A DNA stretch of 52,179 nucleotides from Acidobacteriota bacterium (GTDB lineage: Bacteria > Acidobacteriota > Vicinamibacteria > Vicinamibacterales > UBA2999): NCBI GenBank assembly GCA_016213695.1, contig JACQZV010000003.1, forward strand, positions 1-52,179, in the 5' to 3' direction. The position numbers and the translations under genes are program-made. The notes beneath the pieces are model-generated. The model saw only the letters and a program-made list of their open reading frames with translations. It made no database searches and had not been told where the DNA came from. Below are positions 16,178 to 27,343 of the stretch, in pieces. Position 1 is the first letter of the stretch. Each line of letters begins with the position of its first letter.

Positions 16178-17068
16178 CTACCTCCTGTCCCCCGTCCCCC
16201 CCGACATCTGTTCGAGCACCTTGAAGAGCACCGCGAAGTCGTACTTGGCGAAGCCCATGCCGCGGGCCGCCGTGAGGAACTCATTGGTGACGGCCGTCGT
16301 CGGGAGCGGCACGTCGAGCCGCCGGCCCATTTCGAGCGCGAGCAGCATGTCCTTCTGCATCATGTTCACGTCGAACCAGGCTTCATCCGGCAGCTTGAGG
16401 ACGAACGGGCCGCGGTACTGCACCATGGGCGACGCGACGACGCCGTGGGTGAAGACGTCCACCGCGACCTCGCGCGGGATGCCGCTCTTCTCGGCGAGCA
16501 TGATGCCTTCGCTGAAGGCGAGCATCTGCACGGCGAGCTGCAGGTTGTGAGCGATCTTGAGCGAGAGCGCGAGGCCGTTGTCGCCGACGTGGGTCACTTT
16601 GGGTCCGATATCGTCCAGGATTGGCTTGACGCGATCGAAGGTCGCGCGCGTGCCGCCCACCATCACGCTCAGCTTGCCCGCCTCGAGCGTCGACACGCTG
16701 CCGGACACGGGTGCGTCGACCATGTCGGCGCCTTTCGCGCGGACCTTCTCGGCGACGGCCCGGCTGACGGCCGGGCTCACCGTGCTCATGTCGATGACGA
16801 TCTTGCCCGGTCGCAGACCGGCCAGAAGCCCGTCGGGGCCGTCGGACACCGCTTCGAGCGACTTCGAATCGGTGACCATCACAAACGTCGCGTCCGCCGC
16901 TTCAGCGACCGCGCGTGGTGAGTCGCCCCACTTCATGCCGCGATCGACCAGCCACTGCGCCTTCGAGCGCGTGCGGTTGTACCCGACGACGGTGTGCCCC
17001 TTGTCGAGCAGCCGGTTCGCCATGCGGCTGCCCATCGCCCCAAGACCGATGTATCCGAGATTCGCCAT
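16178..17068 (-). CDS. Beta-hydroxyacid dehydrogenase (3-hydroxyisobutyrate/tartronate semialdehyde reductase family)
   Basis: The 296-aa NAD(P)-dependent enzyme has the dinucleotide motif GYIGLGAMGSRMA at its N-terminus, the substrate-binding DAPVSGSVST near 117-126 and the catalytic lysine in GLALSLKIAHN near 170. The length and motif order fit the GarR/MmsB/HibD family, which interconverts 3-hydroxyacids and semialdehydes. A Shine-Dalgarno GGAGGA lies about a dozen bases before the ATG. It is divergent from the dicarboxylate symporter gene and near two aldehyde dehydrogenases, so a role in hydroxyacid or semialdehyde catabolism is likely. The substrate is unknown. Confidence 0.88.
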   Translation of the reverse strand: MANLGYIGLGAMGSRMANRLLDKGHTVVGYNRTRSKAQWLVDRGMKWGDSPRAVAEAADATFVMVTDSKSLEAVSDGPDGLLAGLRPGKIVIDMSTVSPAVSRAVAEKVRAKGADMVDAPVSGSVSTLEAGKLSVMVGGTRATFDRVKPILDDIGPKVTHVGDNGLALSLKIAHNLQLAVQMLAFSEGIMLAEKSGIPREVAVDVFTHGVVASPMVQYRGPFVLKLPDEAWFDVNMMQKDMLLALEMGRRLDVPLPTTAVTNEFLTAARGMGFAKYDFAVLFKVLEQMSGGTGDRR

Positions 17069-17142: not shown

Positions 17143-18474
17143 ATGGACGCCACCGTCGCCACCCGCTCCGCCGCCGCTGCCCGCCGGAAACCGTTCTACA
17201 TGACGCTGTGGGGCCAGGTGCTCCTCGGAGTGGCGCTGGCGATCGTCGTCGGCTACGTCGCGCCCGACACCGCCGTCGCGATGCGTCCGCTCGGCGACGC
17301 CTTCATCCGCCTGATCACGATGGTGATCACGCTGGTGATCTTCTGCACGATTGCGGCGGGGATCGCGGGCATGGACAGCATCAAGAAGATCGGGCGCATC
17401 GGCGGGAAGGCGCTCATCTATTTCGAGGTCGCCACGAGCGTCGCGCTCGTCATCGGCCTCGCGGTCGGCGCGCTCACGCAGCCGGGCGCCGCGTTCAACG
17501 CCGACCCCGCCGCGCTCGACGCCAACGCCGTCGCCAGCTACGCGGGCCAGGCCAAGGGGCAGACGATTACCGACTTCCTCCTGCAGATCATCCCCACGTC
17601 GGTCGTCGACGCGTTCGCCCGCGGCAGCATCCTGAGCGTGGTGTTCGTCTCGGTCGTCTTCGGCTTCGCGATCTCGTCGCTCGGCTCGCGCGGCAAGGCG
17701 CTGCTCGACGTGCTCGAGGGCCTGACCCAGGCCGTCTTCGGCGTGGTCAACATCTTCATGCGATTCGCGCCCATCGGCGCCTTCGGCGCCATGGCGTTCA
17801 CCGTCGGCCGCTACGGCCTCAGCTCGCTCGGCCCGCTCGCCCAGCTCATCGCCACGCTCTGGATCACATCGGCGCTCTTCGTGCTGATCGGGCTCGGCGC
17901 GATCTCGGCTGTGGCGGGGTTCAGCATCATCACCTTCCTGAAGTACATCCGGGAGGAGATCGTCCTGGTGCTGTCGCTCAGCTCCTCGGACCCGGCGCTG
18001 CCGTCGCTGATGCGGAAGCTGGAGAAGCTCGGCTGCTCCAAGGCGCTCGTGGGACTGGTGACGCCGACCGGGTACGTGTTCAATCCGGACGGCAGCTGTC
18101 TGTACATGGGCCTTGCGGCCGTCTTCGTGGCACAAGCCACCAACACGCCGCTGACGATGACGAACTACATCACGCTCTTTGCGGTCGCGGCGCTGACGCA
18201 CAAGGGGGCGGTCGGCGTGCAGGGCGCCGCCTTCATCGCGCTCGTGGCCACGCTGATGGTGATTCCGTCCATCCCGGTTGCCGGCATGGCGCTCATTCTC
18301 GGCGTCGACCGGTTCATGAGCATGTGCCGGGCGACATTGAACATGCTCTGCAACGGCGTGGCGACGCTCGTCATCGCGGTGTGGGACAACGAGCTCGATC
18401 GCGCCACGCTGCGGGCGAATCTGGCGGCGCTGACCTCAGGCGCCGCGGACGTAAACGCCGCGCCGGCTGTGTAG
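17143..18474 (+). CDS. dctA: Dicarboxylate/amino-acid:cation symporter (DctA/GltP family)
   Basis: The 443-aa membrane protein belongs to the DAACS family (glutamate-transporter fold). Visible marks are the first helix of the core (FYMTLWGQVLLGVALAIVVG), the serine-rich reentrant loop VLSLSSSDPALPSLMRKLE, the TPTGYVFNPDGSCLYMGLA helix 7 motif and the C-terminal DRFMSMCRATLNMLCNGVAT with substrate-binding Asp, Arg and Asn. The residues fit the C4-dicarboxylate/DctA branch, but amino-acid substrates are possible. It is on the plus strand between an oxidoreductase and an aldehyde dehydrogenase on the minus strand, so it may import the substrate of that block. Confidence 0.88.
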   Translation: MDATVATRSAAAARRKPFYMTLWGQVLLGVALAIVVGYVAPDTAVAMRPLGDAFIRLITMVITLVIFCTIAAGIAGMDSIKKIGRIGGKALIYFEVATSVALVIGLAVGALTQPGAAFNADPAALDANAVASYAGQAKGQTITDFLLQIIPTSVVDAFARGSILSVVFVSVVFGFAISSLGSRGKALLDVLEGLTQAVFGVVNIFMRFAPIGAFGAMAFTVGRYGLSSLGPLAQLIATLWITSALFVLIGLGAISAVAGFSIITFLKYIREEIVLVLSLSSSDPALPSLMRKLEKLGCSKALVGLVTPTGYVFNPDGSCLYMGLAAVFVAQATNTPLTMTNYITLFAVAALTHKGAVGVQGAAFIALVATLMVIPSIPVAGMALILGVDRFMSMCRATLNMLCNGVATLVIAVWDNELDRATLRANLAALTSGAADVNAAPAV

Positions 18475-18484
18475 AGCGCCCGCG

Positions 18485-19933
18485 TCAGCCGCGCAGGTAG
18501 ACCGCTTTCCGGTCGACGAAGAACTCCAGGCCGCTTTCGCTGTTCTCGGGCAGGCCGGCGCCCGACTGCTTGACGCCGCCGAACGGCATCGAGGGCTCCT
18601 TGTAGCCGGTGTGCACGTTGACGTGCGCCAGACCGGCTTCGATGCCGTCGATGTACCGCTTCGCCGCACCGATATCCGTGGTGTAGATCGCCGACGACAA
18701 CCCGTAGATCGAGTCGTTGGCCAGAGCGAGCGCCTCATCGAGCGAGTCGAACTCGGACACGGCCAGCACCGGACCGAAAATCTCGTCGCGGAAGAGCGCC
18801 ATCTCCGGCCGCACGCCGACAAAGACCGTCGGACGGATGAAATAGCCGTCCGGCGGCAGCCCCGCGCCGCCGCCCGCAACCATGCGCGCGCCGTCCGCCT
18901 GGGCCCTGCCAATGGCGGCACAGATGTCTTGGTACTGCTGGGGGCCGGCCACCGGACCCATATCGGTCGTCTCGAGCACTCCATCGCCGACCGCCATCCG
19001 GCCGCAGCGCGCCGTGAGCTGTTCCAGGAACGATCCGGCAATGCCGCGCTGCAGCAGGATGCGGCTCGTAGACGTACACCACTGGCCCGCGTTGGCGAAG
19101 CCGGCCGTGACCGCCGCCTCCAGCGCTGCGCTCAGGTCGGCGTCCTCCATCACGATCAGCGCATTCTTCCCGCCCAGCTCGAGCTGCGTGCGCGTCAGGT
19201 TGGCGGCGGCCTTCGCCTGGATCTTCTTGCCGACCTCGGTGGAGCCGGTGAACGAGAGTGCGCGAACGCCCGGATGTTCGACGATGTGATTGCCGATGGA
19301 CGAGCCGAGGCCGGTGACGCAGTTGAAGACGCCCGCGGGCAGGCCGGCGCGCTCGAACAGGCCGGCCATGAAGACGCCCGACCACGGCGTGAACGACGCC
19401 GGCTTGAACACGACGGTGTTTCCGGTCAGCAGCGCCGGCAGCGTCTTGCGGCACATCACGTTCATCGGGAAGTTCCACGGGCTGATCACACCCACCACGC
19501 CCACGGGCTCGTATTGCACCCATGTCGTGAGGTCGCGGAACGCGCCGGGCCCGGTGTGGCCGTAGAACGCCGACACCTGCGTCAGGTGGTAGCCGCCTTC
19601 GACCAGCGCGGAGTCCACTTCGGCGCGCGATTCGCGAATCGTCTTGCCGTTCTCAAGCGTGACGATGCGGGCCAGCTCTTCGCGTGATGCCTTGAGCAGC
19701 CTGAGAAATTCCGCGATGTGCTGCTGGCGCTCGGGCACCGACGTCCGGCGCCACGCACGGAACGCCGCCTCGGCGGCGCCGATCGCCTCGTCGATGTCGT
19801 CGGGGGTCGAGGCCTGGAAGGCGCCGAGGCTGCTGCCCCTACGTACCGGATTTTCATCCTGAAACGTCTGCCCGCTCCGGGAACATTTCCATTGGCCGGC
19901 AACGAAGTTCTTCAGCGCGTCGGCCATGTTCAC
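18485..19933 (-). CDS. NAD(P)-dependent aldehyde dehydrogenase
   Basis: The 482-aa enzyme is a complete ALDH-superfamily member: Rossmann motif FTGSTEVG (229-236), catalytic Glu252 in ELGGKN and nucleophile Cys286 in AGQWCTSTSR. Its closest look is the alpha-ketoglutaric semialdehyde/vanillin-type branch, but substrate assignment needs alignment. The GTG at 19933 overlaps the upstream cupin stop as GTGA, which favours it over the ATG at 19927; both give the same protein core. It ends only ten bases from the convergent symporter stop, with no clear terminator in between. Confidence 0.88.
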   Translation of the reverse strand: MNMADALKNFVAGQWKCSRSGQTFQDENPVRRGSSLGAFQASTPDDIDEAIGAAEAAFRAWRRTSVPERQQHIAEFLRLLKASREELARIVTLENGKTIRESRAEVDSALVEGGYHLTQVSAFYGHTGPGAFRDLTTWVQYEPVGVVGVISPWNFPMNVMCRKTLPALLTGNTVVFKPASFTPWSGVFMAGLFERAGLPAGVFNCVTGLGSSIGNHIVEHPGVRALSFTGSTEVGKKIQAKAAANLTRTQLELGGKNALIVMEDADLSAALEAAVTAGFANAGQWCTSTSRILLQRGIAGSFLEQLTARCGRMAVGDGVLETTDMGPVAGPQQYQDICAAIGRAQADGARMVAGGGAGLPPDGYFIRPTVFVGVRPEMALFRDEIFGPVLAVSEFDSLDEALALANDSIYGLSSAIYTTDIGAAKRYIDGIEAGLAHVNVHTGYKEPSMPFGGVKQSGAGLPENSESGLEFFVDRKAVYLRG

Positions 19934-20439
19934 CTGGACGATGGGGCCGACACGTTGCCGGGAAACCGGGCCTCGAGATACGTGACGTGGCCGTTAATCC
20001 TGCTGAACCAGTGAGCCGTCCCTGGCGGGATCACGATGATGTCTCCCGGCTTGATGTCATTCGAGACGCCTCCCGTGATGCCCGCGGTCCGGTTCTTCGG
20101 ATCGGGCATCGACCCGCCCGTGGTGTACGTGCCGCCGCCGTCGAGGATGTAGTACACCTCGGTCACGTCCGCGCCATCGCCGTCTTTCGTGTGGACGCTG
20201 GCGTTGTTCGGGCCTGCCACCCGGCGCCGGACGACGAACGGCGGGACGATTCGAGCGGACTGACCCGCGACGATCCCGAGCGCCGGCTTGTCGGCATCGA
20301 GCATCCTGTTCCACTGGGCGGACGCAATGAACCGGCCGGGCGGGGTCATCACGCCCTGGGCCATGCCCACGAGGTCGTGCAGCGAGAGTGCCGCAAGGGT
20401 GACGAGCAGCGCACCGCGCAGGAGTCTCTTCATCATCAC
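19930..20439 (-). CDS. Exported cupin-domain protein (A)
   Basis: This 169-aa protein has an N-terminal signal peptide (MMMKRLLRGALLVTLAALS) and a single cupin barrel. The first cupin motif is around SVHTKDGDGADVTEVYYILDG and the second around GDIIVIPPGTAHWF, giving two His and one Glu candidates for metal binding. The substrate is unknown. The paralogue B lies 13 bases upstream, so the two are co-transcribed and may work together. The stop codon overlaps the start of the aldehyde dehydrogenase gene. Confidence 0.8.
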   Translation of the reverse strand: MMMKRLLRGALLVTLAALSLHDLVGMAQGVMTPPGRFIASAQWNRMLDADKPALGIVAGQSARIVPPFVVRRRVAGPNNASVHTKDGDGADVTEVYYILDGGGTYTTGGSMPDPKNRTAGITGGVSNDIKPGDIIVIPPGTAHWFSRINGHVTYLEARFPGNVSAPSSR

Positions 20440-20452
20440 TGGTCTCCTCGAC

Positions 20453-21058
20453 TTATCGGGGCGCCGTCCCGAGCGCCATCAGGGGAGCGACGCCGTCCGG
20501 ATCGACACGCACCACGACGTAGCTCGTGAACTCGTCGGCGTCTTCCCACTTGTGCGGCGTGCCCGCCGGGATGATGAGGACATCGCCCTTCGCAATCGTG
20601 ACGTCCCTGGCCCCGGCCGCCGTTGTGCCGCCGCTTCCCCGTCCGTTGCCGACGCTCACGGGGCGGCGCTTCCAATCGGCGATCGTGCCGCCGAGCTTCA
20701 TATGACCCCGGCCTTCGAGCACGTAATAGACCTCCGCCACGTCGTCGTGAACCGCATAGTTCGGGTTCTTCTGCCCCTTGTTGCGATAGACCACGCTGAT
20801 GCCAACCTGGTGCGCGTCGCTGCCGCCGCCGGCCTTGACCATGTTCATCGGCACGTCGTCATCCTTGGCCGCGATCATCTTCTTCTTGTGTGCCTCGATC
20901 TGTGCGGCCGTGATGAGGGTCCCCGGCAGATCGTAACGGTGACCGGGCAGCGCCACGGGGGACGGATCAGTGGGGCGCTGCTCCTGTGCGGCGACGGCCG
21001 CCGCGACGCCCACCACCAACATTCCCGCGGCGCGGTATCTGCAGATCCTGCGATACAT
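20453..21058 (-). CDS. Exported cupin-domain protein (B)
   Basis: The 201-aa paralogue of the downstream cupin carries a signal peptide (residues 1-24 or so, MYRRICRYRAAGMLVVGVAA) and a cupin barrel with DDVAEVYYVLEGRGHM and GDVLIIPAGTPHKWED. It is longer by a lysine-rich helix (AAQIEAHKKKMIAAKDDD) before the barrel. The pair resembles exported cupins often annotated only as 'cupin domain-containing'. A catalytic role in the periplasm is possible but not shown. Confidence 0.78.
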   Translation of the reverse strand: MYRRICRYRAAGMLVVGVAAAVAAQEQRPTDPSPVALPGHRYDLPGTLITAAQIEAHKKKMIAAKDDDVPMNMVKAGGGSDAHQVGISVVYRNKGQKNPNYAVHDDVAEVYYVLEGRGHMKLGGTIADWKRRPVSVGNGRGSGGTTAAGARDVTIAKGDVLIIPAGTPHKWEDADEFTSYVVVRVDPDGVAPLMALGTAPR

Positions 21059-21141: not shown

Positions 21142-22620
21142 CTAGATTCCCCCGAGGCAGATGTACTTGATCTCCAGAAACTCCTCGATCCCGTACTTCG
21201 ACCCTTCGCGGCCGAGACCCGACTCCTTGACGCCGCCAAACGGCGCCACCTCGGTCGAGATGATACCGGTGTTGACGCCGACGATCCCGGTCTCGAGCGC
21301 CTCGGCCACACGCCAGACGCGGCCGATGTCGCGGCCGTAGAAGTAGGCGGCCAGTCCGAACGGCGTGTCGTTCGCCAGCGCGATCGCCTCGTCCTCGGTG
21401 CGGAACCGGAAGAGCGGCGCGACGGGGCCGAACGTTTCCTCCTGCGCCACCAGCATCGCGGGCGTCACGTCGGCGAGCACGGTCGGCTCGAAGAAGCGGC
21501 CGCCGCGCGCGTGGCGCCTGCCGCCGCTCACGATGCGCGCCCCCTTGGCCAGCGCGTCCGCGACATGCTCCTCCACCTTCTGGACGGCGCGATCGTCGAT
21601 GAGCGGGCCCTGCGTCGCGCCCTCGTCGAGGCCCGGCGCGGGCTTCAGCGTCCGCACGGCCGCCGCGAGCCGGCCGGCGAACGCGTCGTAGACGCCGTCC
21701 TGCACCAAGAGGCGATTCGCGCAGACGCAGGTCTGTCCCGTATTCCGGTATTTCGACGCCATCGCGCCCTCCACCGCCGCGTCGAGATCCGCGTCGTCAA
21801 ACACGATGAACGGCGCGTTGCCGCCGAGCTCGAGCGAGATCTTCTTCACGGTGCCGGCGCACTGCGCCATCAGGAGCTTCCCGGTCTCGGTCGAGCCGGT
21901 AAACGACAGCTTGCGCACGTCCGGGTTCGACGTCAGCTCGCGCCCGATTTCCCCGGCCGCCCCCGTCAGCACGTTGAACACGCCCTTCGGCAACCCGGCG
22001 CGCTCTCCGAGTTCGGCGAGCGCGAGCGCGGAAAACGGGGTCTGCGACGCGGGCTTCAGCACGACCGTGCAGCCCGCCGCAATCGCCGGTCCCGCCTTGC
22101 GGGTGATCATCGCGAGCGGAAAGTTCCACGGCGTGATGCAGGCAACAACACCGATCGGCTGCTTGATGACGATGATGCGCTTGTCGCGCTGGTGGCCCGG
22201 GATGGTGTCGCCGTAGACGCGCTTGGCCTCCTCGCCGAACCATTCGAGAAACGACGCGGCGTAGCCGACCTCGCCGCGCGACTCGGCGAGCGGTTTGCCC
22301 TGCTCGAGGGTCATCAGTCGCGCCAGGTCCTCCTGGTTCGCCATCATCAGGTCGAACCAGCAGCGCATCACCGCTGCACGCTCCTTCGCCGTCCGGCTGC
22401 GCCAGCCGGGGAAGGCCCGCGCGGCGGCTCCAACGGCCGTCCGCGTCTCGGTCGCGCCGAGCTTCGGCACGAGGCCGATGACCTCGCCCGTCGCCGGGTT
22501 ATCGACGCCAATCGTGGCGCCGCCGCGGGCATCGAGCCACGCGCCGTCGATGTAGCAGGCCTGCCGGAAGAGTCTGGAATCGGCGAGGGAGACGCCGGTG
22601 GGTGCGGTGGTGGATGGCAT
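21142..22620 (-). CDS. gabD: Succinate-semialdehyde dehydrogenase-like ALDH
   Basis: Starting at MPSTTAPTG the product has 492 aa. Catalytic Glu is at 264 (ELGGNAP) and the nucleophile Cys at 298 (NTGQTCVCANR), with the double-cysteine CVC typical of GabD-type enzymes; FTGSTETGK is the Rossmann motif. These match the NAD(P)-dependent succinate-semialdehyde dehydrogenases that close the 4-aminobutyrate/4-hydroxybutyrate route to succinate. Related semialdehydes cannot be excluded. The ATG at 22620 was chosen over one at 22653 because the extra residues overlap a repeat and do not match the family. It lies 32 bases from the E2 gene, with a short repeat in between. Confidence 0.88.
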   Translation of the reverse strand: MPSTTAPTGVSLADSRLFRQACYIDGAWLDARGGATIGVDNPATGEVIGLVPKLGATETRTAVGAAARAFPGWRSRTAKERAAVMRCWFDLMMANQEDLARLMTLEQGKPLAESRGEVGYAASFLEWFGEEAKRVYGDTIPGHQRDKRIIVIKQPIGVVACITPWNFPLAMITRKAGPAIAAGCTVVLKPASQTPFSALALAELGERAGLPKGVFNVLTGAAGEIGRELTSNPDVRKLSFTGSTETGKLLMAQCAGTVKKISLELGGNAPFIVFDDADLDAAVEGAMASKYRNTGQTCVCANRLLVQDGVYDAFAGRLAAAVRTLKPAPGLDEGATQGPLIDDRAVQKVEEHVADALAKGARIVSGGRRHARGGRFFEPTVLADVTPAMLVAQEETFGPVAPLFRFRTEDEAIALANDTPFGLAAYFYGRDIGRVWRVAEALETGIVGVNTGIISTEVAPFGGVKESGLGREGSKYGIEEFLEIKYICLGGI

Positions 22621-22630
22621 GGTATGCCTC

Positions 22631-22657
22631 GCGGTCCGGCTCAAGCCGGACACTACG
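22631..22657. repeat. Short palindromic repeat (REP-like), copy between gabD and E2
   Basis: The core GGTCCGGCTCAAGCCGGACACTACG is a near-palindrome that fills the gap between the E2 stop and the gabD start. It contains the E2 stop codon (TAG, positions 22655-22653). Two more copies, in opposite orientation, lie inside the E2 gene at 23331-23408. The TCCGGCT/AGCCGGA arms could form a small hairpin in the mRNA. Confidence 0.7.
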
Positions 22658-23882
22658 TGCGTGTGAGTTCAGTTACGACGTCGCGCAGAAACTCAGCGGC
22701 GCGGGCGCCGTCGGCCACGCGATGATCGCACGAGAGCGTGAGCGACACCATCGGGCGCACCGCCGGCGCGCCGTTCACGGCCACCACGCGATCGGCGATG
22801 GCACCGACGGCGAGGATCGCGGCCTGGGGCGGCACGATGATCGCGGTAAAGGCGTCCACGTCGAACATGCCGAGGTTGCTCAGCGTGAACGTGGCGCCCG
22901 CGACGTCGCCCGGCTGCAGCCGGCCGGCGCGCGCGCGCTCCGCCAGCTCCCGCCGCCGCGCCGCAAGGTCGCCGATTGCCAGCGTGTCGGCGCGCGCGAT
23001 CACGCCCGTCACCACCGCGTTCTCCACCGCCAGCGCGAGCGCGATATTCACGTCGGCGTGCGCGACGATGCCGTTGCCGGTCCAGCTCGCGTTCAGCCGC
23101 GGGTGGCGCCTGAGCGCGCGAGCGACGGCGGCGACGATCAGATCCGTGTGCGTGAGCTTGACGCCGTGCGATCGCTCGACCTCCGGCAGGAGCGCCTCGC
23201 GCGAGGCGGTGAGCGCGGTCGCATCCACGTCGCGCGTGACGAAGAAGTGCGGCACCGTCGTCCAGCTCTCGGTCGTGCGCTCGGCCATGAGCCGGCCGAT
23301 CGTCGTGGGAGCTTCGGCGGCAGATGCCCCGGTCCGGCTGAAGCCGGACGCTACGGACGAATCGGACCCCGCCTGCTCAGTCGTAGTGGCCGGCTTCAGC
23401 CGTAGGCGTTCTGCGGCGGCAAGAATGTCGTCCGCCAGGATCTCCCCGCCCGGGCCGGATCCGGTCAGGCGGCTGAGATCGACGCCATGCTCGCCGGCCA
23501 GGCGGCGCGCCTTGGGAGAGATCCGCGGCGCCTGCGCTGCTGGCGTGCCGGCATCGGCCCTGGCGACCGCGGCCGGCTGCGGCGCCGCATCGGTCCGGCG
23601 GGCGGTCGGCGCGTCCGCGGGCGCCGCCGCGGGCGGAGCCTCCCCGGGCGCGACGAGCCATGCGATCGTGTGGCCGACGGCGATGACGTCACCGGGCCGC
23701 GCGGTGACGCCGGCAAGGATCCCGTCGCCGGCGGCCTCCACTTCGACGACGGCCTTGTCGGTCTCCACCTCCAGGAGCATCTCGCCCTTGCGGACCGGCT
23801 CGCCCTCCTTCTTCAGCCACGCGACGAGCTTGCCGGTCTCCTGCGCCATCTCGAGCGCAGGCATCACCACGCTCACGGCCAT
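22653..23882 (-). CDS. 2-oxoacid dehydrogenase E2 (lipoyl acyltransferase)
   Basis: The 409-aa protein has a lipoyl domain with Lys43 in EVETDKAVVEVEA, an E3-binding domain (about 119-156, ISPKARRLAGEHGVDLSRLTG) and a catalytic acyltransferase domain with the DHRVADG motif near the C-terminus. It would form the core of the complex with the E1alpha/E1beta pair 1.5 kb upstream. Residues 160-185 of the linker come from an inverted pair of short repeats, in the otherwise Ala/Pro-rich inter-domain linker. No E3 gene is in the window. Acetoin, branched-chain or pyruvate specificity is undetermined. Confidence 0.9.
   Translation of the reverse strand: MAVSVVMPALEMAQETGKLVAWLKKEGEPVRKGEMLLEVETDKAVVEVEAAGDGILAGVTARPGDVIAVGHTIAWLVAPGEAPPAAAPADAPTARRTDAAPQPAAVARADAGTPAAQAPRISPKARRLAGEHGVDLSRLTGSGPGGEILADDILAAAERLRLKPATTTEQAGSDSSVASGFSRTGASAAEAPTTIGRLMAERTTESWTTVPHFFVTRDVDATALTASREALLPEVERSHGVKLTHTDLIVAAVARALRRHPRLNASWTGNGIVAHADVNIALALAVENAVVTGVIARADTLAIGDLAARRRELAERARAGRLQPGDVAGATFTLSNLGMFDVDAFTAIIVPPQAAILAVGAIADRVVAVNGAPAVRPMVSLTLSCDHRVADGARAAEFLRDVVTELTRT
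23331..23408. repeat. Inverted pair of REP-like repeats inside the E2 linker
   Basis: A copy GGTCCGGCTGAAGCCGGACG (23331-23350) is followed about 30 bases later by an inverted copy (GGCCGGCTTCAGCC, 23388-23401). Together they encode residues 160-185 of E2, including the peptide VASGFSRTG. Both lie in frame in the flexible linker, so the protein stays intact. The same core recurs at 22631-22657. Confidence 0.75.
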
Positions 23883-23885
23883 CGG

Positions 23886-25244
23886 CTAGCGCCCCGCGCC
23901 GATCTTCTCGTGGCCGGCCTCCGCGCGCGCCGCGGCCGCGATCATCTCGACCACCTCGGGATTCCGCGGCGCCTCCGTCTCCCGCACGATCGGAAGCGTG
24001 CCGCCGACCGTGACGAACGGCGCGCCGGCGACGAGCAGCTCCTCGGCCGGGAAGCGCGTGATCACTTCATGCCCCGTCGGCGTGACGACGATCTCCTCTT
24101 CGATGCGCGCGGCGCTCCACCCGTCGGTCGACGGCCAGAACGTCTCGAGCGCGAACACCATGCCGGGCTTGATCTCGTGCGGATGCTCGAGCGACACGAG
24201 CCGGCTGATCATCGGCCGCTCCCAGATGGCCAGGCCGATGCCGTGGCCCATCTGCAGCGCGAACGCCGCTTCTTCGTTCGGGAAGCCGAACTCCTGCGCC
24301 CGGGGCCACACCGCCGCCACGTCCGCTGTCGAGCGTCCCGGCCGAATCAGCTCGATCGACGCGTCGAGGTAATCGCGGCACCGCTTGTACGCGTCCACGA
24401 GGGCGCGCGACGCCGACCCCACCGCGAACGTCCGGTAGTAGCAGGTGCGATATCCCATGTACGAGTGGAGGATGTCGTAATAGACCGGATCGCCAGGCCT
24501 GAGCGCGCGATCCGAGAAGAGGTGCGGGTGGGGGCTGCAGCGCTCGCCGGAAATCGCGTTGACGCCTTCCACGTACTCGGAGCCAAGGTCGTAGAGCCGC
24601 TCGGCGACGAGCGCCACCGCCTCGTTTTCCCGCATCCCCGGCTTCATCGCCTTGTAGAGGTCGTAATAGGCGGCGTCCACCATCATCGCCGCCATGTTCA
24701 GCAGGATGATTTCGTCGTCGGTCTTGATCTCGCGCGCGACGCACAGCAGCGCCTGCCCATCGACGACGGTGATCCCCTCACGCTGCAGGGCGAACATGAC
24801 GGGCGGCTCGACGATATCGACGCCGAGCGGCTCCTTGTGCAGTCCGCGCTTCTCCAGCTCGATCCGGATCTTCTTCGCCACGTCCTCGGCGCGCCCCATC
24901 TCCGGCGTCATCGCGCCGCGCATCGAGGGGATACCGGCACGCGAGCGCTCGCCGAGCCAGGGACAATGAAGCTGATGATGGCGGGCGGCGGAGCCGAAGT
25001 CCCACAGGATCGGCTCGTCGTGCTGCGGCAGCAGCGTGAAGCGGCTGATCTTGTCCTGCGCCCACGTGCCGATGTGGGTCGAGGTGATGTACCGCACGTT
25101 GTTCATGTCGAAGCAGAGCAACGCGCCCATGGAAGACTTCGCCAGCAGCTCCTTGATGCGCGCGAGCCGCTCGCGCCGCAGCCGGTCGAAGTCGACCCGC
25201 TGCTCCCAGTCCACCGCCATCGTGCCGAAGGTTTTCAATGCCAC
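23886..25244 (-). CDS. M24-fold protein (Xaa-Pro peptidase/creatinase-like) with one metal ligand replaced
   Basis: The 452-aa protein has the two-domain M24 ('pita-bread') layout: N-terminal domain about 1-170 and catalytic domain from about 175. Metal ligands visible are Asp257 (YYDILHSY), His334 (GHGIG), Glu367 (ALETF) and Glu382 (RIEEEIV). The site of the second Asp, eleven residues after the first, is Cys268 (YRTCYYRT), where canonical members read Y.SD.TRT. This suggests a mononuclear metal site or a non-peptidase activity. The gene lies between E1beta and E2, three bases from the E2 start. Function: unknown; M24-fold members include prolidases, creatinase and DMSP lyase DddP. Confidence 0.8.
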   Translation of the reverse strand: MALKTFGTMAVDWEQRVDFDRLRRERLARIKELLAKSSMGALLCFDMNNVRYITSTHIGTWAQDKISRFTLLPQHDEPILWDFGSAARHHQLHCPWLGERSRAGIPSMRGAMTPEMGRAEDVAKKIRIELEKRGLHKEPLGVDIVEPPVMFALQREGITVVDGQALLCVAREIKTDDEIILLNMAAMMVDAAYYDLYKAMKPGMRENEAVALVAERLYDLGSEYVEGVNAISGERCSPHPHLFSDRALRPGDPVYYDILHSYMGYRTCYYRTFAVGSASRALVDAYKRCRDYLDASIELIRPGRSTADVAAVWPRAQEFGFPNEEAAFALQMGHGIGLAIWERPMISRLVSLEHPHEIKPGMVFALETFWPSTDGWSAARIEEEIVVTPTGHEVITRFPAEELLVAGAPFVTVGGTLPIVRETEAPRNPEVVEMIAAAARAEAGHEKIGAGR

Positions 25245-25347: not shown

Positions 25348-26382
25348 TCATTTGTTGCACATCTGCCGCACGAGATCGACCACGTCGCGTTCGGCGGGCA
25401 CCGTCGCATCCTCGAGCGGAGGCGAAAAGGGAATCGGCACGTGCCGGGCGCCCAGGCGGCGCACCGGACCGTCCAGCTCGTAGAAGGCCCCCTCGGCGAT
25501 GACCGACGCGAGCTCACCGGTCACGCCGTAGCGGAAGGAGCCCTCGTCGATGACGAGCGCGCGCGACGTCTTCCGCACCGACTCAATCAGCGTCTTCTCG
25601 TCGAGCGGCCACGTCGTCCGCGGATCGACCACCTCGGCGCTGATCCCGATCTCTTCGAGCATCGCCGCGGCGCCGAGCGCCACCTGCACCATGCTGCTCG
25701 TGGCGACCAGCGTGACGTCGCGCCCCTCCCGCTTGATGTCGGCCACGCCGAACGGGATCGTGTAGTCGCCCTCCGGCACGGGTCCCTTGACCTTGGCGTA
25801 GCTGATCTTGTCCTCGAAGAAGACGACCGGGTTGTCGTCGCGGATCGCCGTCTTCAGCAGCCCCTTGGCGTCGTACGGCGTGGACGGGATCGCCACCTTG
25901 AGACCTGGGACGTGGCTCGGCCAGGCGTGCAGCGACTGTGAATGCTGCGCCGCCGAGCGCCGCGTCGCGCCCATCGTCGCGCGAATCACCATCGGCACCT
26001 TCCACCGGCCGCCCGACATGTAGTGACTCTTGGCTGCCTGGTTCACCACCTGATCCATGACGAGCGCGATGAAGTCGCCGAACATGATGTCGACGATCGG
26101 CCTGAGGCCGGTCATCGCGGCGCCGACCGCCAGCCCGGTGAAGCCGGCTTCCGAGATCGGCGTGTCGATGACCCGGTCCTTGCCGAACTCCTCGACCAGC
26201 CCTTTCAGCACCTTGAACGCGGTGCCGGCCTCCGCAACGTCTTCGCCCAGGAGCACGACCTTCGGATCGCGCCGCATTTCCTCGGCGAGCGCCTCACGGA
26301 TCGCCTCGCCGAACGTGATCTCTCGAACCGGGGCGTCCGCTTTCGGCGGAACCCGCCCGGCGTGTGCGACAGCCTCAGGCAT
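25348..26382 (-). CDS. 2-oxoacid dehydrogenase E1 beta subunit
   Basis: The 344-aa transketolase-like subunit starts MPEAVAHAGRVPP; the E1beta body begins at REITFGEAIREALAEEMRRD. Visible marks are GEDVAEAGTAFKV, DTPISEAGFTGLAVGAAMTG and FGDFIALVMDQVVNQAAK, all expected in E1beta of pyruvate/acetoin/branched-chain complexes, and the C-terminal domain (VIDEGSFRYGVTGELAS). Its ATG overlaps the E1alpha stop by eight bases (ATGCCTGA), so the subunits are translationally coupled. An ATG at 26394 is possible but would overlap more. Confidence 0.93.
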   Translation of the reverse strand: MPEAVAHAGRVPPKADAPVREITFGEAIREALAEEMRRDPKVVLLGEDVAEAGTAFKVLKGLVEEFGKDRVIDTPISEAGFTGLAVGAAMTGLRPIVDIMFGDFIALVMDQVVNQAAKSHYMSGGRWKVPMVIRATMGATRRSAAQHSQSLHAWPSHVPGLKVAIPSTPYDAKGLLKTAIRDDNPVVFFEDKISYAKVKGPVPEGDYTIPFGVADIKREGRDVTLVATSSMVQVALGAAAMLEEIGISAEVVDPRTTWPLDEKTLIESVRKTSRALVIDEGSFRYGVTGELASVIAEGAFYELDGPVRRLGARHVPIPFSPPLEDATVPAERDVVDLVRQMCNK

Positions 26383-27343
26383 AAATGTCCTCATCCACCC
26401 TGCCCGGATCCGGGTACGGGGCCTTCATCGCATAGTCGACCGCGGCATCCATCTCGGCGGTCAGCTCCTCCGTGATCCGGTCGAGCGCCGCCTGATCGGC
26501 GATCCCCTGCGCCAGGAGCCATGCCGCGTGGAGCGCAATCGGATCCCGATCGGCCATCCACCGCTGCTCTTCCTGCTTCGGCCGGTAGTAGTCGCGCGCG
26601 ACGTCTCCGACGTGATGCCCGCGGTACCGGTAGGTGTTGAGCAGCAGAAACCCCGGACCGTCGCCCCGCCGGGCCCGATCGATCATCGCGGAGGCGGCCG
26701 CGTGCACCGCGCGTACGTCCTGTCCGTCCACGGCCTGCGCGGCCACACCGAACGCCGCGGGCCGCGCCATGATGTCACCGGCCGTCGTTTCCGAATAGTG
26801 CGTGTACTCGTTGTACAGATTATTCTCGCAGGCGTAGATGACGGGCAGCTTCCACAACTGGGCCAGGTTCATCTCTTCGTAGAGGACGCCCTGCCCGAGC
26901 GCGCCCTCGCCGAAGAAGCAGACCGACACGCGGCCGGTTCCCTGATACTTGGAGGCGAACGCCGCGCCCGTCGCAATGCCGGCGCCGCCGCCGACGATCG
27001 CGTTGGCCCCGAGGTTGCCGGTGCCCGGGTCGGCAATATGCATCGACCCGCCCTTTCCCTTGCAGTAGCCGGCTTCCTTGCCAAGCAGCTCGGCGAACAT
27101 CAGGTGCGGCACCGCGCCCTTGGCGAGGCAGTGGCCGTGGCCCCGGTGCGTGCTCGTGATGTAGTCGTCCGGCTGCAGCGCCTCGCACACGCCGACGGCG
27201 ACGGCTTCCTCGCCGATATAGAGGTGCGCCAGGCCCGGCATCAGCGCGCGCGTGTAGAGATCGTTCACACGCTCTTCGAAAAGGCGGATCGCCATCATCT
27301 GCCGGTACATCCGGACCGCAGGAGGTCTGGTGCTTGTGGTCAT
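26375..27343 (-). CDS. 2-oxoacid dehydrogenase E1 alpha subunit
   Basis: The 322-aa thiamine-diphosphate subunit has the TPP-binding region as GEG (145-147) followed about 28 residues later by ENN (173-175), the variant of GDG...NN seen in acetoin-dehydrogenase-like E1alpha. The phosphorylation-loop-like segment RYRGHHVGD and the STHRGHGHCLAKG motif are present. The pair E1alpha/E1beta with E2 and no E3 in the block resembles AcoABC-type clusters. The substrate is undetermined. The start MTTSTRPPAV follows a 29-base gap from the upstream exported-protein gene. Confidence 0.92.
   Translation of the reverse strand: MTTSTRPPAVRMYRQMMAIRLFEERVNDLYTRALMPGLAHLYIGEEAVAVGVCEALQPDDYITSTHRGHGHCLAKGAVPHLMFAELLGKEAGYCKGKGGSMHIADPGTGNLGANAIVGGGAGIATGAAFASKYQGTGRVSVCFFGEGALGQGVLYEEMNLAQLWKLPVIYACENNLYNEYTHYSETTAGDIMARPAAFGVAAQAVDGQDVRAVHAAASAMIDRARRGDGPGFLLLNTYRYRGHHVGDVARDYYRPKQEEQRWMADRDPIALHAAWLLAQGIADQAALDRITEELTAEMDAAVDYAMKAPYPDPGRVDEDIYA

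Follow-up and report, generated by a model that had tools for sequence, protein, structure and literature searches.

An M24-fold protein with a cysteine at the bridging metal-ligand position, encoded within a conserved 2-oxoacid dehydrogenase operon of Acidobacteriota

What is the function of a peptidase-family protein that is encoded between two subunits of a 2-oxoacid dehydrogenase and has a cysteine in place of a metal-binding aspartate? The question is raised by the window, i.e. the whole 52,179-nucleotide stretch of contig JACQZV010000003.1 (assembly GCA_016213695.1, Acidobacteriota bacterium) that was analyzed. The features of the operon and its surroundings are as follows.

26375..27343, (-) strand: E1alpha of a 2-oxoacid (pyruvate/acetoin-type) dehydrogenase (TIGR03182, 305 bits, under the cut-off of 394)
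25348..26394, (-) strand: E1beta (PRK09212, 402 bits, over the cut-off of 321)
23886..25244, (-) strand: M24-fold protein of 452 residues, read from a GTG start, with Cys where the bridging metal Asp normally is
22653..23882, (-) strand: E2, with lipoyl, E3-binding and catalytic domains
21142..22653, (-) strand: NADP-type succinate-semialdehyde dehydrogenase, GabD (NF008415, 866 bits, over the cut-off of 828)
20453..21058, (-) strand: cupin protein, hydrophobic at its N-terminus and likely a passenger
19930..20439, (-) strand: second cupin protein
18485..19933, (-) strand: second aldehyde dehydrogenase, under all NCBIfam equivalog cut-offs listed
17143..18474, (+) strand: C4-dicarboxylate transporter DctA (561 bits, cut-off 513)
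16178..17068, (-) strand: beta-hydroxyacid dehydrogenase of the GLYR/HIBADH/tartronate-semialdehyde reductase type; the acidobacterial operon reductase matches it at 71%

The gene order is thus E1alpha, E1beta, M24, E2, GabD, the two cupins and the second aldehyde dehydrogenase, all on the (-) strand, then DctA (+) and the reductase (-). The best PDB match of E1alpha is human PDH E1alpha. Acetoin and pyruvate dehydrogenase operons have the E1alpha-E1beta-E2 order in common with this one, but here the M24 gene is inserted between E1beta and E2, and the E1alpha is far from the next E1alphas (46–49% or less). One lipoamide dehydrogenase (E3) above the family cut-off is found in the genome, outside of the window, and this single E3 could complete the E1/E2 complex.

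The 23886–25244 open reading frame matches Pfam Peptidase_M24 (PF00557) with 123.3 bits against a 23-bit cut-off, which together with a match to M24 structures places the protein in the M24 fold. The dinuclear metallopeptidases of this fold have the five ligands D,D,H,E,E; the protein of the window reads D257, C268, H334, E367, E382. The codons, all on the (-) strand, are:

24474..24476: Asp257, metal-ligand position, kept
24441..24443: Cys268 (TGC), at the site of the Asp that ligates both metals (DddP Asp307, PepP Asp271)
24243..24245: His334, metal-ligand position, kept
24144..24146: Glu367, metal-ligand position, kept
24099..24101: Glu382, metal-ligand position, kept

Cys268 lies eleven residues past Asp257 in the translation and pairs in sequence alignment with Asp307 of DddP, which is among the six residues that ligate metal in that enzyme (PMC4108388). 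The aminopeptidase P counterpart, Asp271, ligates both metals (PMC5723419). The translation and the Pfam match agree with the preliminary description, which had read an M24 fold with Cys268 (TGC, 24443–24441) for the second metal Asp and with His334, Glu367 and Glu382 kept, in a gene embedded between E1beta and E2; all three genes are on the same strand. A second cysteine, Cys236 (24537–24539), and an HPH motif (His239, His241) are invariant in bacterial members with Cys268. Cys236 is absent from the haloarchaeal members; it is a possible second thiol close to the pocket.

The full-length AlphaFold model has a pLDDT under 50 at residues 236–267 and a model of the C-terminal domain only is of lower confidence; both are unreliable in the metal region. 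With the full model, of moderate confidence overall, Foldseek matched M24 structures (E = 1e-16) with DddP at the top, and DoeA and creatinase also ranked high.

The protein does not group with the characterized M24 families that were compared. It gives 110 bits against a cut-off of 600 for the DddP profile NF043017 (NCBIfam), 70 bits against 613 for the ectoine hydrolase DoeA/EutD profile TIGR02993, and 59 bits or below for the peptidase equivalogs. The DMSP lyase DddP (PDB 4rzy/4b28) shares the M24 fold and an N-terminal creatinase-type domain, and it is the best match both by sequence (85 bits) and by fold. However, identity is about 18–28%, DMSP context is lacking, and DddP metal ligands Asp297 and Asp307 and the proposed base Asp377 are replaced by Leu259, Cys268 and the Ala339/Ile340 region. 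Prolidase and aminopeptidase P have four of the five metal-ligand positions and the PH motif in common with the protein, but differ in the bridging Asp and in the histidines at −4 and +7 from the metal His. These positions, which correspond to E. coli APP His350 and His361 and were used here to mark a proline peptidase, are Leu330 and Trp341. At the +7 position, His is found among Cys-type members in roseobacters and one Streptomyces, and Tyr in haloarchaea. Because the peptidase histidines and DddP Asp297 and Asp377 are missing, the protein is neither a typical proline peptidase nor a DddP. DoeA/EutD (PDB 6twk), the second fold match, is likewise a non-peptidase M24 protein of a catabolic cluster, where it is found with an SSADH-like ssd gene (PMC13188858). 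The ectoine pathway is the nearest working analogue, but its deacetylase partner is not seen here, and the partners are instead a beta-HAD and E1/E2.

Cys268 is present in all 111 acidobacterial rows at 76–100% identity; the rows come from two overlapping sources with some genomes counted twice, so that the number of separate genomes is lower. The same Cys is found in full-length relatives from Streptomyces, Rhodococcus, Paenarthrobacter and roseobacters (54–62% identity) and in haloarchaeal relatives (32–35% identity), all from plasmid records, by which alone the distribution beyond Acidobacteriota was sampled and whose gene tables are incomplete. Across the Cys-type members the residue sits within the motif GYR[ST]CYYRTF, the T of RTF varying (F/C) in some acidobacteria. 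This motif together with D,C,H,E,E is proposed to define a Cys-type M24 subfamily, and the gene of the window shows both. In a tree of 40 M24 proteins the Cys type forms a single clade (support 91/86). Masking the motif gives a best tree that needs two label changes, and a single clade is not rejected (p-AU = 0.225); the Cys type would thus have arisen once or twice. A reading error at 24441–24443, raised in the preliminary description, is ruled out since Cys268 is invariant in independent assemblies. The same description had allowed for close homologues with Asp at this position; none was found among 59 relative genomes, the best 80 of 444 genome loci or the plasmid matches read. The closest relatives that do carry Asp form a family of acidobacterial paralogues, with ~34% identity over the full length. 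Judged across the Cys-type members, Cys268 is a fixed trait that marks a subfamily of soil bacteria, marine bacteria and salt-loving archaea, and not an oddity of one gene. The gene itself is carried by 11 of 297 acidobacterial genomes drawn evenly across the phylum. A search of viral contigs for more diverse relatives gave none.

The Asp-type paralogues (L012–L014, G000:C18) have HS rather than HG after the metal His, and in one (L014, G018:C82) a D-2-hydroxyacid-dehydrogenase-like reading frame comes next. Two other Asp-type M24 genes (L166, L168) adjoin trimethylamine methyltransferase-family genes, in L166 with sarcosine oxidase as well, which suggests quaternary-amine catabolism at those loci.

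Neighbors were counted at 80 related acidobacterial loci (the best 80 of 444), each gene being scored only where the flank suffices. Upstream of M24, E1beta is found at 69 of 73 testable loci, E1alpha at 61 of 66, the GLYR/HIBADH-type reductase at 54 of 59 and GntR at 42 of 59; E2 is downstream at 66 of 72. An SSADH-type aldehyde dehydrogenase is near M24 at only 22 of 47 loci, and ALDH annotation is loose; DctA is present at 11 of 47 loci. Among 59 relative genomes, 12 have the M24 gene, and these same 12, one contig-end fragment (G004) included, are the only ones with an E1alpha orthologue (68–100%); the next E1alpha is at 46% or less. Across 72,556 plasmids, roseobacter M24 clusters account for all of the 18 top E1alpha matches (59–61%), followed by matches of 49% or less. 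On these sequence comparisons, the operon is real and the pairing of M24 with E1alpha is specific and old. No description of an M24/2-oxoacid dehydrogenase pathway was found in the literature searched. In many Terriglobia, a TonB-dependent-receptor-like frame of about 1200 residues is divergent upstream of the operon, on the opposite strand (L061, L067, L092 and about 30 further loci), which may reflect import of a substrate that is larger or in short supply.

The loci that depart from this arrangement bear on what the M24 protein works with. Two acidobacterial genomes (L079, L131) have an adjacent ALDH-reductase-M24 triplet and no E1alpha above 45%. E1/E2 as the sole partner of M24 is thereby ruled out, and because the triplet is held without an E1alpha orthologue, M24 may be tied primarily to the enzymes that handle the semialdehyde. 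At a third locus, L083, only fragments of E2 accompany M24 and E1 is not nearby, the E1alpha orthologue being elsewhere in the genome; this M24 copy (L083:10534–10970) resembles a decaying duplicate of the operon. A related reductase also adjoins M24 in Streptomyces and Paenarthrobacter; the haloarchaeal oxidoreductase has no detectable membership in the reductase family of the bacterial loci. The best solved relatives of the acidobacterial reductase are the Geobacter beta-HADs 3pef/3pdu and the plant 3doj, members of a group known from the literature as succinic-semialdehyde/glyoxylate reductases (PMC5399074). The SSADH-like aldehyde dehydrogenases differ in subfamily by host: the window has GabD, Streptomyces YIM 121038 and roseobacters have a TIGR01780-like enzyme, and Edaphobacter and Haloferax a PRK09406-like one.

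From these data we infer metal binding, catalytic activity, reaction type and products of the M24 protein, which is probably a breakdown enzyme not yet characterized rather than a peptidase. We give about an even chance to an M24 enzyme that is no peptidase, differs from the characterized families tested, acts in a small-molecule catabolic module and liberates a semialdehyde together with a 2-oxoacid or an acyloin. The predicted pocket of Asp257, His334, Glu367, Glu382 and Cys268 would hold one metal, or two with a bridging thiolate, and the enzyme would hydrolyze or lyse a pathway intermediate in a metal-dependent manner. A short, succinic-semialdehyde-like acid-semialdehyde would be released and then oxidized by the aldehyde dehydrogenase or reduced by the GLYR/HIBADH-type reductase. 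In most genomes a 2-oxoacid or acyloin would also be released and converted to acyl-CoA by the co-inherited E1/E2 with E3. Counting against this reading are the SSADH-type enzymes near M24 at only 22 of the 47 loci and the haloarchaeal oxidoreductase, for which no link to the bacterial reductase family was detected. It is more likely that the semialdehyde is the first product and the 2-oxoacid step secondary, because GabD and the reductase are in the operon and two genomes have M24, ALDH and reductase only. The preliminary description had proposed a non-peptidase whose product feeds the dehydrogenase complex; the non-peptidase and the catabolic operon with E1/E2 hold up, but a semialdehyde is favored as the first product. 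A bolder version, which we consider unlikely as a whole, is a family that spans both prokaryotic domains, has an M24 metal center bridged or ligated by a thiolate and carries out a cleavage new to the fold. The intermediate would yield a semialdehyde and a 2-oxoacid, both consumed by the family's own dedicated oxidoreductases and E1/E2/E3, in an undescribed catabolic pathway of soil Acidobacteriota and other lineages. If true, a fixed Asp-to-Cys change at the bridging ligand would add a new chemistry at the metal site to a very large fold. Since the operon is conserved, the pathway is open to genetic tests in cultured hosts (Edaphobacter, Phaeobacter, Haloferax).

The leading alternative, though an unlikely one, is a catalytically dead M24 protein serving as a scaffold, a substrate sensor or an E1/E2 regulator, comparable to the predicted "pseudo-APP" domain of PID-5. 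The bridging Asp and the peptidase His are lost, and the gene is co-inherited with E1alpha. Mutation of the Asp equivalent to Cys268 abolishes aminopeptidase P activity (PMC10377022), so that a binding-only or regulatory role is possible. However, pseudoenzymes usually lose ligands, and here the four ligand positions, the HPH histidines (in bacterial members) and GYR[ST]CYYRTF are near-absolutely conserved; M24 also persists in the two genomes without an E1alpha orthologue. The invariance of Cys268, with the other ligands kept and His239/His241 retained in bacterial members, argues for selection on an active site and not for decay.

A pyruvate-type aldolase or C-C hydrolase, splitting a 4-hydroxy-2-oxoacid or beta-diketone into succinic semialdehyde and pyruvate, is a specific form of the preferred catabolic enzyme and is rather improbable. 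Succinic semialdehyde would pass to SSADH or the reductase and pyruvate to E1/E2, and both of these product-handling branches are present. In homoprotocatechuate breakdown, 4-hydroxy-2-oxoheptanedioate aldolase yields the same two products. Against this, genes of an upstream aromatic pathway are not seen in the operon and to our knowledge no M24 enzyme has such an activity.

It is very unlikely that the protein is a DddP-like DMSP lyase or a betaine/creatine-type enzyme, as the preliminary description had hinted. DddP is the best solved relative by sequence and fold, with DoeA and creatinase high by fold, but the profile score and the replaced aspartates speak against it, and none of the findings implicates DMSP or creatine. 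Acrylate, DMSP, methyltransferase and sarcosine-oxidase genes are not seen beside Cys-type genes, in contrast to the Asp-type M24 genes noted above. Least probable of all is the atypical Xaa-Pro dipeptidase or other peptidase implied by the database name "Xaa-Pro peptidase family protein", which has the fold and four of the five ligands in its favor but is contradicted by the active-site residues, i.e. the replaced bridging Asp and −4 His and, except in roseobacters and one Streptomyces, the +7 His, and also by neighbors that are mostly small-molecule catabolism genes.

The genes that accompany Cys-type M24 copies on Paenarthrobacter plasmids (L150:7199–11371; L137; L152) encode RidA and NAD(P)-dependent oxidoreductases, and one such copy is some 2 kb away from SulR, a flavin reductase of sulfonamide degradation. 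Degradation of the sulfonamide ring as the M24 function is unsupported, as the heterocycles pile up as dead-end products in Paenarthrobacter (PMC10873849). The haloarchaeal Cys-type genes (L143, L145–L148) are situated on megaplasmids with an acetolactate-synthase-like TPP enzyme, a luciferase-like oxidoreductase, EthD and SSADH.
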